Positions 21,633 through 27,940 of a stretch of 64,000 bases of DNA are shown here, in pieces. The first letter of the stretch is position 1. The number at the start of each line of letters is the position of its first letter. A program made the position numbers and the translations under genes. Under the pieces are notes generated by a model. The model saw nothing but the letters and a program-made list of their open reading frames with translations, had not been told where the DNA came from and searched no databases. The stretch is from Agrococcus sp. Marseille-P2731 (GTDB lineage: Bacteria > Actinomycetota > Actinomycetes > Actinomycetales > Microbacteriaceae): positions 1-64,000 of the forward strand of contig NZ_FPEG01000003.1 in assembly GCF_900117395.1 (NCBI RefSeq), read 5' to 3'.

Positions 21633-23453
21633 TCACGGCGCGGGCGCCGGGGCGGTCGCGGTCTCGATCGCCCACTCCCAGGCGTTCCAGGTGAGGGATG
21701 CGCTGCGCGGCCTCGGCACGACACCCTGCACCTGCGAGGCCGAGACGGTCGTGGGCGAGGGCTCGATGATGGGGAGCACCAGCGCATCCGCGACCAGCGA
21801 GGTCTCGAGCTCGAGCAGGGTCTCCTCGAGGGCGTCGCGATCTGCCGTGGCCAGCGCCTCGTCGATCATTGCGTTGCGCTCGGCGCTGCTCGCGGCCGTG
21901 ATGCCGCCGTCGCGCCAGCGCTCGTCGATCTCGCCGACGCCCTCCGGCACCGTGACCTGTCGCAGCACCGCGTGCCAGTCCTCGCCGGCGAGCCCGGCGC
22001 GCAGGTCGTCGACGCCGCAGTCGCGCACCGCCCACCCGGCCTCGGCGGCCTGCTCGCGCATCGCCTCGACGTAGGCGGTCGAGAAGCCCGACGCGCGGTC
22101 GTGCAGCACGCAGAGCTCGGTGCCCGCGGCGATGGCCATGGAGTCGCGCAGCGCGGCCGCGGCCTCCGCATCCGCACCGCCGAAGGCGTCGCTGAAGCCG
22201 GCGTCCTCGAGCGCGTACTCGTAGATGCGGGTGCCGGAGCGGAAGAGGATCGAGTCGGTCGCGGTGGTGTCCTGCACCCGCTCCCCCAGCGCCGCCTCGG
22301 TCGCTCGCCGCTGGTCGAAGGAGCGGAGGAACGACGTGCGCGCCTCGACCGACTGCAGCGGAGCGCGGTCGGCGCGCAGCGCGAGCTCCCAGCGCGTGCC
22401 GTCTCCGGCGAGCAGGAGCGACGCGTCGTCGCGCTCGAGGTCGCGGATGACAGTGCGGCTCTCCTCGGTCGGCTCGACGGTCGCGACGTCGACCTCGCCG
22501 GCAGCGAGCGCCTGCAGCGCCGCGGCGTCGTCGGCCACCGGTCGCAGGGCGAGGCGCTCGATCGCGGCGCTCTGGGCACCGACGTAGGAGGTGTTCGCGA
22601 CCAGGTCGACGCGGCCGTTCTGGATCGTGTCCACGCGATAGGCGCCGCTCGAGACCAGGAGGTCGGACTCCAGGGCGAGCGGGTCGACCACGAACTCGCT
22701 GCTCCACGCCGCCGAGAGGCGGTGCAGCACGAGCGGATCCGCGCGGTCGATGGCGTCGAGCACCGCCTGCTTGGCCTCCATCGGGTCGGCGATGCCGAGC
22801 ACCCGCTGCGCGAGCACGTGCGCGGGCACCGCGACCGGCAGCGCCTGCTGCCAATCGGGGATCGGCTGCGACAGCTCGACGTCGATCGAGCGCTGCCAGT
22901 CGTCGGGCGTCGCGCCGGTGGAGTGGATGAGGCCGCCCGAGTCTGCGACGTCGAACCAGACGGCGTCCTCCGGCAGGTCGAGCGCCCCATCCGTGCCGCG
23001 CAGCGCGGACACGTCGAGATCGGGCGTCGAGAGCGCGTTGGAGGTCGCGGCCCACGCCAGCATGAGGTCGGCCGCATCGACCGGCACGCCGTCGGACCAG
23101 CGCACGCCCTCGGCCAGGTCGTAGCGCACCGTGAAGGGCGACTCGCTCGCGATCGTGACCGTGCCGAAGCTGGGGTCCTCGCGCAGCTCACCGTCGTTGT
23201 CGAGGGTCGTGAACGCGCCCCGCGTGAGCGCCGCGAGGTCGCGGTTGCCCGCCGTCGCCCCGGTGCTGCTCGCGGCGTTCGCAGAGGTCAGCTCGCCCTC
23301 CCACGCGACCGCGACGCTCGTGCCGGCCACCACGCGCGGCTCGTACGACGGGCCCCCGCACGCGGTCAGCGCGAGCGCCGCGATGGCGGCGGCCGCGATC
23401 GCGAGCGTGCGGGGTCTCGTCACGCGTGCGGCGCGACCAGCGGACGGTGGCAT
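21633..23453 (-). CDS. Family 5 substrate-binding lipoprotein coupled to gcvP
   Basis: A 606-residue solute-binding lipoprotein of the peptide (family 5) type. The signal peptide is clear, and the lipobox LALTAC places the lipidated Cys at residue 32. The body has RYDLAEGVRWSDGVPVDAADLMLAW, the family 5 signature. The ATG at 23453 overlaps the gcvP stop as TGATG. A GTG 30 nt further in is an alternative start. No permease or ATPase gene accompanies it. It is a distant paralogue of the binding protein at 18794. As the last gene of a glycine cleavage operon it could bind a peptide or amino compound that feeds glycine, but the ligand is unknown. Confidence 0.88.
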   Translation of the reverse strand: MPPSAGRAARVTRPRTLAIAAAAIAALALTACGGPSYEPRVVAGTSVAVAWEGELTSANAASSTGATAGNRDLAALTRGAFTTLDNDGELREDPSFGTVTIASESPFTVRYDLAEGVRWSDGVPVDAADLMLAWAATSNALSTPDLDVSALRGTDGALDLPEDAVWFDVADSGGLIHSTGATPDDWQRSIDVELSQPIPDWQQALPVAVPAHVLAQRVLGIADPMEAKQAVLDAIDRADPLVLHRLSAAWSSEFVVDPLALESDLLVSSGAYRVDTIQNGRVDLVANTSYVGAQSAAIERLALRPVADDAAALQALAAGEVDVATVEPTEESRTVIRDLERDDASLLLAGDGTRWELALRADRAPLQSVEARTSFLRSFDQRRATEAALGERVQDTTATDSILFRSGTRIYEYALEDAGFSDAFGGADAEAAAALRDSMAIAAGTELCVLHDRASGFSTAYVEAMREQAAEAGWAVRDCGVDDLRAGLAGEDWHAVLRQVTVPEGVGEIDERWRDGGITAASSAERNAMIDEALATADRDALEETLLELETSLVADALVLPIIEPSPTTVSASQVQGVVPRPRSASLTWNAWEWAIETATAPAPAP

Positions 23454-26296
23454 CAGGCGAAGGCCTCCACCGGCGGGCAGCTGCAGACGATGTTGCGGTC
23501 GCCGAAGGCCTGATCGATGCGTGCGACCGGCGGCCAGTACTTGGCCCGCTCGACACCCGGCACCGGGAATACCGCCTGCTCGCGCGAGTACGGCCGATCC
23601 CACTCGCCGTGGACGATCGAGCCCGCGGTGTGCGGTGCCCGGCGCAGCGCGCTCTCCTCGAGCGGCACCTCGCCGCGCCCGATGGCGTCGGCCTCGGCCT
23701 TGATCGCGATCATCGCATCGATGAAGCGGTCGATCTCGGCGATGTCCTCCGACTCCGTCGGCTCGACCATGAGCGTGCCCGCCACCGGGAAGGACATCGT
23801 CGGCGCGTGGAACCCGTAGTCCACCAGGCGCTTGGCGACGTCGTCGTTCGAGACGCCCGTCGCCTCCTTCAGCGGCCGCAGGTCGAGGATGCACTCGTGC
23901 GCGACGAGGTCGCGCTCGCCGCTGTACAGCACCGGGAAGTGCTCGCTCAGGCGCGCGGCGACGTAGTTCGCCGCCAGCACCGCGCTCGCGGTCGCCTTCG
24001 TCAGGCCGCCGTGCCCCATCATGCGCACGTAGGCCCACGAGATCGGCAGGATCGACGCCGAGCCCCAGGGCGCGGCCGAGAGCGGGTTGGCGCCGAGGGT
24101 GAGCCCGTCGACGACCTGCGGCTCGTCGCGCGGGTCGCGGGGCAGGAAGGGCGCGAGGTGCGCCTTCGCCGCGACCGGGCCGACGCCCGGTCCGCCGCCG
24201 CCGTGCGGGATGCAGAAGGTCTTGTGCAAGTTGAGGTGCGAGACGTCGCCACCCATGTCGCCGAAGGTCGCGTGCCCGAGCAGCGCGTTGAGGTTGGCGC
24301 CGTCGATGTAGACCTGGCCGCCAGCGTCGTGCACGAGCTCGCACACGCGCCGCACCTCTGCCTCGTAGACGCCGTGCGTCGAGGGGTAGGTGATCATGAG
24401 CCCGGCGAGGTCGTCGGCGTGCGCCGCGATCTTCGCCTCCAGGTCGGCGAGGTCGACATCGCCGCTCTCGCTCGTCGCGACCACCACGACGCGGCAGCCG
24501 GCGAGCACGGCGCTCGCCGCGTTCGTGCCGTGCGCCGACGCGGGGATCAGCACGACGTCGCGGTGCTCGTCGCCGCGCGACCGGTGGTAGCCGCGGATCG
24601 CCATGAGGCCGGCGAGCTCGCCCTGCGCACCGGCGTTGGGCTGCAGCGACACCGTGTCGTAGCCGGTGATCTTCGCCAGCCACTCGCTCAGCTGGTCGAC
24701 GAGCTCGAGCGTGCCAGCGGCATCCTCGATCGGTGCGTAGGGATGCAGCTGCGAGAACTCGGGCCAGGTGATGGCCTCCATCTCTGCGGCCGCGTTGAGC
24801 TTCATGGTGCAGGAGCCGAGCGGGATCATGCCGCGGTCGAGCGCGTAGTCGCGATCGGAGAGCCGCTTCGCGTACCGCATCAGCTGCGTCTCGGAGCGGT
24901 GCGCGGCGAAGACCTCGTGCGTCATGAACTCGGTCGTGCGCTCGAGCGACGTGGGGATCGCGCGCTCCCCCTCGCCCGCCTCGGCGATGCCGAGCGCCTC
25001 GAGCAGGTCGGCGAGCGGCACGCCCGTGCCGACCTCCGCCCAGGTCTCGTCGAAGGCGACGTGGAGGGTGTCGCCGTCGACCGCGTGGACGAGGATGCCG
25101 GCGTCGGCGGCACGGGACCGGAGCTCAGCCGCCCGACCGGGAACGCGCATCCGCACCGTGTCGAAGAACGCGTCGTGCACGAGCTCGACACCGGCCGCGC
25201 GCGCGGCTGCGGCGAAGCGCGACGCGACGGCGTGCACGCTCTCGGCGATCGCCCGGATGCCGTCAGGCCCGTGGTAGACCCCGTAGAACGAGGCCATCAC
25301 GGCCAGCAGCACCTGCGCGGTGCAGATGTTGCTCGTCGCCTTCTCGCGGCGGATGTGCTGCTCGCGCGTCTGCAGCGTCAGGCGGTAGGAGGGGTAGCCG
25401 TCGGCATCCTGCGAGACGCCGACGAGGCGGCCCGGCATCTGCCGGGTGAGGCGCTGCGCGACCGCCATGAAGCCGGCGTGCGGCCCGCCGAAGCCCATCG
25501 GCACGCCGAAGCGCTGCGACGAGCCGACGGCGATCTGCGCGCCCTGCGTGCCGGGCGCCTCGATGAGCGCGAGCGAGAGCAGGTCGGCGGCTGCGACCGG
25601 CACGCCACCCATCTCGGCCGAAGCGGTGAAGATGCCCCGCGCATCCCAGACGAGGCCGGATGCGCCGGGCAGCTGGGCGATGACGCCGAAGGAGTCGGGC
25701 AGGTCGGCCGGGGCCGTGTGCGCGAGCGGCAGCTCGACGAGCTCGATGCCCGTCGCGTGCGCGCGGTGGCGCAGCAGCGCCTTCGACTGGGGCAGCAGGT
25801 CGGCATCGACGACGAACACCGACGAGGCCGACTTCGAGGCGCGGCGCGCGAGCAGCATCGCCTCGACGACGGCCGTGCCCTCGTCGAGCATCGAGGCGTT
25901 CGCGATGTCGAGGCCGGCGAGGTCGGCGACCATGGTCTGGAAGTTGATGAGCGCCTCGAGCCGGCCCTGGCTGATCTCGGGCTGGTAGGGCGTGTAGGCG
26001 GTGTACCACGAGGGGTTCTCGAGGATGAGCCGCTTGATCGGGGCGGGCGTCACGGTGCCGTGGTAGCCGAGGCCGATGGCGCTGTGGCGCACCCGGTTGC
26101 GGCCGGCGAGGGCCCGCAGCTCGGCGAGCGCAGCGGTCTCGGAGGCGGCCTCGCCGATGTCGGCGCCGGCGCTGCGGATGCCGGACGGCACCGCGGCATC
26201 CATCAGCGCCTCGAGCGAGTCGAAGCCGATCGCTTCGAGCATGACCTGCTGCGCCGCCGCATCGGTGCCGATGTGGCGGTCGACGAACGGACGCAT
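23453..26296 (-). CDS. gcvP: Glycine dehydrogenase (decarboxylating), P-protein
   Basis: A 947-residue single-chain P-protein that decarboxylates glycine and passes the methylamine group to the lipoyl arm of GcvH. Both halves are present: the N-terminal half ([19 protein letters not shown], then [19 protein letters not shown]) and the C-terminal half with the PLP lysine in [18 protein letters not shown]. Length is normal. The start overlaps the gcvH stop (TGATG). The large open frame on the opposite strand is a shadow of this gene. Confidence 0.97.
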
Positions 26297-27817: not shown

Positions 27818-27874
27818 CCCCACAGTCGCCGATCGTCGCCGATCTGCTCCAGTGCGGCCTTCCCGAGCGGTTCT

Positions 27875-27940
27875 AGAACCTGAGAGTTTGGCGGGGAGGC
27901 TTGCTCCTTCGGTGCTCCCGAAGGAGCTCTCCCGCACGGG
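27875..27940 (-). ncRNA. Glycine riboswitch (gcvT motif, single aptamer)
   Basis: The minus strand carries the conserved core in order: CGGGAGAGCTCC, GGAGCACCGAAGGAGCAA and CCAAACTCTCAGG, with matching P1 to P3 stems. This is the glycine-binding aptamer. I see no second full aptamer before gcvT, so it looks like a single-aptamer version with flanking stems. It lies about 80 nt before the gcvT start, as expected for glycine-induced control of the cleavage operon. Confidence 0.95.

Follow-up and report, generated by a model that had tools for sequence, protein, structure and literature searches.

A solute-binding-fold lipoprotein joined to a glycine riboswitch operon in Agrococcus, a possible partner of a type VII-like secretion system

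The window analysed here comprises 64,000 nucleotides of Agrococcus sp. Marseille-P2731 (NCBI RefSeq assembly GCF_900117395.1, contig NZ_FPEG01000003.1, positions 1 to 64,000 of the forward strand). It contains a gcv operon behind a glycine riboswitch, followed directly by a gene, here called lipoA, for a lipoprotein with the fold of family 5 solute-binding proteins (SBPs). Genomes and loci are cited by their G and L numbers where they have to be told apart. The operon has the following features:

27858..27944, reverse strand: single glycine riboswitch aptamer (Rfam RF00504, 63.8 bits, above the gathering cut-off of 32)
26652..27794, reverse strand: gcvT, aminomethyltransferase (NF001567, 409 bits, cut-off 300; TIGR00528, 319 bits, cut-off 236)
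26296..26655, reverse strand: gcvH, H protein (NF002270 and TIGR00527, both over cut-off)
23453..26296, reverse strand: gcvP, glycine dehydrogenase (TIGR00461, 1250 bits, cut-off 859)
23451..23455, reverse strand: TGATG, overlap of the gcvP stop and the lipoA start, kept in 16 of the 19 lipoA-bearing Agrococcus genomes
21633..23453, reverse strand: lipoA, SBP_bac_5-fold lipoprotein of 606 residues (PF00496; lipobox LTAC, Cys32)

A first-pass annotation of this DNA had described gcvT, gcvH and gcvP as joined by overlapping stop and start codons, with the gcvP stop running into the lipoprotein start. This layout was borne out: gcvT and gcvH overlap by 4 nucleotides (nt), gcvH and gcvP by 1 nt, and the TGATG is found at 23455-23451. 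The lipoA product matches PF00496 with 70.4 bits (cut-off 32.4; E 2.1e-19). Its lipobox was identified by inspection. Across the 17 rows of alignment A4, Cys32 never varies, and neither do Cys448 and Cys479, which may form a disulphide. Copies 61–71% identical occur in five named loci, all from Agrococcus. The ratio of nonsynonymous to synonymous change (NG86, 10 species pairs) was 0.16–0.57 for lipoA, compared to 0.05–0.21 for gcvP; judged from these ratios, lipoA is under purifying selection and is evolving faster than gcvP.

We searched 24 Agrococcus genomes, in 23 of which the end of gcvP was readable. The pairing of gcvP with the lipoprotein, whose absence from close relatives would have told against the first-pass annotation, is present in 19 of the 24 (in G021, the bases after the lipoA start are Ns). 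Most bases after the TGATG vary among the lipoA-bearing genomes. In G014, G008 and G007, possible lipoA starts lie ≈40–120 nt past the stop codon of gcvP, and in G002, G015, G005 and G022 there is no ATG at that stop. The gene is apparently frameshifted in G019 and split over two contigs in G018. A simple scan of positions 20400-28100 found no sigma-70-like promoter or terminator, which is a weak test, since only ≈0.2 and 0.8, respectively, would be expected by chance. Synonymous variation in the last 60 codons of gcvP (15 genomes) was 0.168, compared to 0.194 overall, showing no strong constraint; in the last 15 informative codons it was lower, at a level seen in 4% of such stretches. Because the scans found none and the synonymous variation is near average, a promoter inside gcvP is not indicated. 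Glycine control of lipoA through a transcript led by the riboswitch is plausible from this arrangement.

Beyond lipoA, the window continues with the following genes:

20778..21542, forward strand: CPBP (Rce1-like) membrane protease gene, convergent with lipoA (PF02517, 71.8 bits)
18794..20614, reverse strand: SBP2, Dpp-type binding lipoprotein of 606 residues, 26% identical to lipoA (PF00496; GTG start at 20614 by inspection)
17114..18655, reverse strand: dppB, permease (PF00528)
16116..17117, reverse strand: dppC, permease (PF00528, PF12911)
13499..15400, reverse strand: dppDF, fused ATPase (ABC_tran and oligo_HPY, two stretches each)
11511..13421, reverse strand: typA/bipA, start approximate (PF21018 BipA_C, GTP_EFTU)

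A PIG-L (mshB-like) gene adjoins typA, with no SBP between them. The first-pass annotation gave the lipoprotein no permease or ATPase partner here; this needs correcting, as SBP2, dppB, dppC and the fused dppDF lie ≈1 kb downstream on the same strand, behind the CPBP gene. In 30 of 31 gcvP loci fetched from Microbacteriaceae outside Agrococcus, CPBP lies between gcvP and the transporter (in the remaining one, L083, CPBP stands before typA), and in none of the 31 does a lipoA match separate gcvP from CPBP. In this sample, where the gcvP–CPBP–transporter order outside the genus has no lipoA, the gene is thus an insertion made in Agrococcus into a pre-existing arrangement. At the gcvP–CPBP junction of G015 (L050), a strong GC-rich inverted repeat was seen by eye after the gcvP stop, as if the operon ended there.

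To find relatives of lipoA, a profile was run against 248 genomes of the order, with five candidates scored per genome. The eight strongest matches outside Agrococcus came from two families: six from genus g108 of family f14 (G297, G459, G312, G367, G434 and G381) and two from the Microbacteriaceae genus g85 (G185 and G359). All eight genes lie in a locus that encodes an EssC-like ATPase (≈1500 residues, with FHA and FtsK/SpoIIIE domains) and a WXG100 protein, and no gcv gene was found in the fetched stretch around any of them. In the g108 loci and in G185, up to five more proteins, none with a Pfam or NCBIfam name, are encoded in between. In G359 (L090) the SBP gene is the next gene found after WXG100, the queries recognising only ATPase, WXG100 and SBP; the Pfam names in the relatives' loci come from L084 and L094. 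Loci were examined for the best 12 matches outside Agrococcus, 30 weaker rows being left out, and the next four after the eight (G214, G475, G448 and G327) were SBPs of Dpp loci. Across 396 genomes of the phylum, a search recovered the lipoA type from G000 and G185 only; with three candidates scored per genome, misses are possible.

In the SBP tree, 14 lipoA rows cluster with these eight relatives, and 50 SBPs of Dpp loci or of the position before typA fall outside this group (SH-aLRT 100). The 22 rows are separated from the other 50 by 31 diagnostic columns. At position 458, 21 of the 22 have Ala, compared to Arg in 50/50 of the others, and at position 493 all 22 have Trp, compared to Tyr in 48/50. 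The eight relatives fall within the spread of the Agrococcus sequences (support 97), so the tree is silent on where the gene lay ancestrally. Two pre-typA SBPs stand beside the group, one from G071 with support 96 and one from G187 with weak support (41). The first tree included a wrong-frame row (L039_G003) and the frameshifted L046_G019. The second took G003 from L015, represented L072 as L094, and was built without L046_G019, the lipoA pieces of G018, the cut rows L060 (pre-typA) and L071, the distant rows L061 (pre-typA) and L076, L066 and the near-duplicates L036, L037, L049, L050, L053 and L080. G021 (L030) was in neither tree.

The linkage in the outside relatives predicted a secretion locus in Agrococcus, and this prediction came true. 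An ATPase of the same type is encoded in 21 of the 24 Agrococcus genomes at 64–71% identity (in G012 as two pieces, one at 57%, and in G021 as a 174-residue fragment). All 16 of the 21 loci that were fetched have WXG100 and some unnamed proteins beside the ATPase. The locus adjoins rpsG-fusA in G000, G010 and G001, and in eight single-contig Agrococcus genomes it lies 690–1615 kb from the gcv–lipoA site. In three loci (L106, L101 and L114, from G022, G007 and G019), repeated genes for WXG100, 99-residue and 400-residue proteins suggest duplicated modules of exported proteins.

The FHA–FtsK/SpoIIIE ATPase and the WXG100 protein are shared with the type VIIb secretion systems (T7SSb) and their EssC, and with the ESX systems and their EccC. 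The present system differs in that its ATPase scores below the type VII cut-offs (EssC model TIGR03928, 537 bits against 778.4; EccC model TIGR03924, 335 against 509), its other scanned genes have no Pfam or NCBIfam names, and an SBP-fold lipoprotein is associated with it. Other parts of T7SSb and ESX systems are EssA, EssB, EsaA, EccB, EccD and EccE. None of these appeared in general scans of the locus proteins, which included no search aimed at them.

Within Agrococcus, lipoA and the ATPase are mostly present or absent together. Both occur in 18 of the 24 genomes and neither in two (G002 and G015); one has lipoA only (G020), and three combine the ATPase with a divergent SBP. The G020 assembly is 65% complete and has no match to rpsG either, which adjoins the secretion locus in other species. 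The three (G005, G022 and G012) have an SBP with 28–30% identity in place of lipoA, which in G005 and G022 lies before SBP2, and with support 95 the tree makes these divergent SBPs neighbours of the lipoA group. For the 19 genomes with full-length data (17 with both, two with neither), the naive probability of so perfect a split is 1/171, a figure that ignores relatedness and has no genome-wide list behind it.

Within the main clade, lipoA is lacking in two species, G002 and G015. The tree of gcvP makes G015 the sister of G001, a species with both genes, and places G002 just outside this pair, so that two separate losses are needed. At the empty gcvP–CPBP site, the matches in this pair are 6 and 79 bases apart, and gcvP runs into CPBP in both. 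At the secretion site, G002 is without a counterpart of L097 4771-13563: the flanks are 7 bases apart, and the upstream one matches at 81% identity along 4.8 kb. In G015, 281 bases separate the flanks, and the upstream flank aligns only in pieces. Since the two sites are 690–1615 kb apart, one deletion cannot explain the joint absence. Both species encode another EssC-like ATPase of ≈30% identity (L108 in G002, L107 in G015), with WXG100 genes beside it in G015. In G015 the genes upstream of the empty secretion site are diverged, among them PP2C (L135, near 11944-12576), and this flank may also have been exchanged.

The clade that lipoA belongs to, the linkage in its relatives and the joint presence and absence, shown here along with the operon layout, point to a role in secretion. 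We favour, with moderate confidence, the reading that lipoA is a dedicated extracytoplasmic partner of one type VII-like secretion lineage, placed in the gcv operon, and not a nutrient scavenger. We infer a physical partnership with the secretion machine, in which the lipoprotein, an SBP fold with changed conserved residues, would be a membrane-anchored factor on the outer face that docks the machine or holds exported substrates.

Several observations weigh against this partnership. In the window's genome lipoA lies outside the secretion locus, and no SBP5 match was found in any of the 16 fetched Agrococcus secretion loci, including L097 of the window's genome. In the order set, all nine genomes in which a lipoA-type SBP was found belong to the 16 whose ATPase is at least 62% identical to the Agrococcus one, which speaks for the partnership, but the other seven of these gave no such SBP (G235 and G475, with ATPases at 71%, and G452, G163, G214, G464 and G426). 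Outside Agrococcus, the SBP was thus found in eight of the 15 order-set genomes with this ATPase type, five candidates being scored per genome, and the fetched stretch of six of the seven loci (all except G214) has no SBP5. The ATPases of the loci without an SBP are 62–71% identical to the Agrococcus ATPase and 58–64% to that of G297. Because of these seven genomes, the lipoprotein can be no more than an accessory in part of this secretion system's lineage. Mirrored trees of lipoA and the ATPase were looked for in Agrococcus and were not found: the lipoA of G006 groups with those of G000 and G017, its ATPase with those of G001 and G004. In G019, lipoA is frameshifted though the secretion locus is present, and the G018 gene is split, as described above. 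The loss in G015 is less clean than that in G002, the upstream PP2C being 54% identical to that of the window's genome (86% in G002, 87% in G001). Furthermore, two losses are a small number, and the partnership is argued from gene content and position.

The best-surviving alternative is that the association with secretion is historical: the gene would have hitchhiked and have an unrelated role, its joint absence with the ATPase from G002 and G015 being a coincidence. The number of losses, the differing ATPase and lipoA trees and the six related secretion loci without the gene are all consistent with this. Against it, linkage was found in 8/8 outside relatives from two families, the joint absence was tested only after this linkage had been seen, and the two sites are unlinked. 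We consider a purely historical association unlikely, if still the most serious competitor.

A second possibility is that lipoA is an extra peptide-binding specificity subunit that feeds the neighbouring Dpp permease. It shares the fold family and the lipobox with SBP_bac_5 lipoproteins of the DppA/OppA type, and the dpp cluster lies close by on the same strand. Throughout the family, gcvP has an SBP nearby: among the matches listed from 249 Microbacteriaceae, with five candidates scored per genome, 84 genomes had gcvP and an SBP on one contig, and in 83 of these an SBP lies at most 20 kb downstream of gcvP on the same strand. G005 and G022 even have two tandem SBPs before dppB. However, lipoA falls in a clade separate from the Dpp SBPs, has no dedicated permease and has altered conserved residues. 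Nor is it inherited with the permease. SBP2, dppB, dppC and dppDF are of another type in 10 of the 22 Agrococcus genomes with a readable transporter (SBP2 36–38% and dppB 46–49% identical to those of the window), while lipoA stays, the split G018 and frameshifted G019 copies being among these ten. G009, with the native transporter, and G020, with the replaced one, are sisters in the lipoA tree, and G002 and G015 have kept the transporter and lack lipoA. The suggestion in the first-pass annotation of a binding protein shared by the dpp permease is thus not supported, and we regard such a role as improbable. The exchanged transporter sits between the conserved flanks CPBP and typA (L033, L035–L039, L042, L043, L045 and L046). 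In these comparisons, tblastn rows for mshB and dapC outside their expected place were ignored as artefacts, there having been no composition correction or masking.

The conserved TGATG coupling behind a riboswitch operon and the retention of the insertion across most of the genus could also mean that lipoA owes its place in the gcv operon to selection for its ligand, as a scavenging or sensing protein for glycine or glycine peptides. But the eight nearest outside relatives have no gcv gene in the fetched stretch, the residues changed at 458 (Arg to Ala) and 493 (Tyr to Trp) are universal or almost universal in the 50 other SBPs, and lipoA presence tracks the secretion ATPase, not gcv. The scavenging of glycine-rich peptides proposed in the first-pass annotation is not supported, given the separate clade, the type VII-like loci of the nearest relatives and the joint absence from two species, and we consider a glycine ligand slightly more improbable still.

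LpqW is a regulatory lipoprotein similar to SBP5 proteins that is not known to act in transport. The idea that lipoA resembles LpqW, as a lipoprotein of the typA/mshB region that works in envelope assembly and not in transport, can draw on the neighbouring pre-typA SBPs of G071 and G187 and on a weak match of LpqW (PDB 2grv) to the lipoA profile (E 2.3e-6), yet it is very improbable, because LpqW ranks only 11th, behind OppA-, murein-peptide- and DppE-type proteins, and so is not the closest solved structure by sequence, because the pre-typA SBPs, taken as its positional counterparts, are split from the 22-row group with SH-aLRT 100, and because lipoA has no typA/mshB position, its type being linked to the secretion locus.

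The supply of lipoA would probably be set from the riboswitch leader, which contains two further features:

27821..27854, reverse strand: 3' stem fitting a ghost aptamer, CACTG 27854-27850 with CTGTG 27825-27821
27795..27817, reverse strand: hairpin GAGTCC/GGACTC covering part of the gcvT ribosome-binding site, arms invariant in 19/19 leaders

A match to the glycine aptamer was found in 23 of the 24 Agrococcus genomes, with one aptamer in each. In a sample of 100 Microbacteriaceae, 83 match RF00504, and 64 of the 81 outside Agrococcus have at least two aptamers, listed mostly as adjacent pairs; the strict filters used for these counts may miss weak second aptamers. Agrococcus thus appears to have single aptamers throughout, whereas two are usual in its family. 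For alignment, 19 Agrococcus leaders were used, leaving out G010 and G011 (near-copies of G016), G005, G022 and G012. P1, P2 and the 3' stem covary among them, and eight pairs change on both sides, a number that was reached in 0/500 shuffles. Two of the pairs in the 3' stem change on both sides, and 93.2% of its cells are paired, with one mismatched pair in the window's genome. Another candidate for the ghost helix, CTGGA/TCCAG, was rejected because by inspection it is broken in G006, G023 and G007, CACTG/CAGTG covarying instead. A plain fold of the window's leader did not form the aptamer structure. By the alignment, with no ghost-aptamer model run, the leader has the one aptamer and 3' ghost stem of a type-1 singleton. 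In PMC6944388, type-1 singleton glycine riboswitches likewise have one aptamer before gcvT and a covarying 3' stem as ghost aptamer, and such singletons are described as degraded tandems, so this part of the finding was already known. What differs from that description is the stem mismatch in the window's genome and the single aptamer of Agrococcus in a family that usually has two. The hairpin over the gcvT ribosome-binding site would suit translational control in either direction; its loop length varies, and its invariant arms give no covariation support. Further upstream of the riboswitch, at 28343-30794, are genes of a Mrp-type cation antiporter (MrpF and proton antiporter domains).

In the proposed mechanism, transcription would start from the riboswitch leader and run through gcvT, gcvH, gcvP and lipoA. 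Ribosomes would pass along the genes in that order, probably by termination and reinitiation at the TGATG when they reach lipoA, so that the lipoA supply would likely follow glycine. The lipoprotein would then be exported, anchored outside the membrane and serve the secretion machine encoded elsewhere on the chromosome. Taken together, this would be an SBP fold turned into an outer-face subunit of a type VII-like system and coupled by stop and start codons to a distant glycine riboswitch operon, with glycine excess setting the level of a surface component, a proposal that we make tentatively and hold to be more doubtful than the partnership itself.

Among the open-access papers searched, no title or abstract opening describes an SBP-fold lipoprotein as a partner of type VII-like secretion. 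Binding proteins with this fold are usually assumed to be peptide importers, whereas here the neighbourhood, the phylogeny and the joint absence point to a secretion partner. If this is correct, an SBP-fold lipoprotein would be added to the components of actinobacterial type VII-like secretion, and Agrococcus would present a natural separation of one secretion part from its locus. It would also suggest that a metabolite riboswitch can gain a secretion part by insertion behind a conserved operon.

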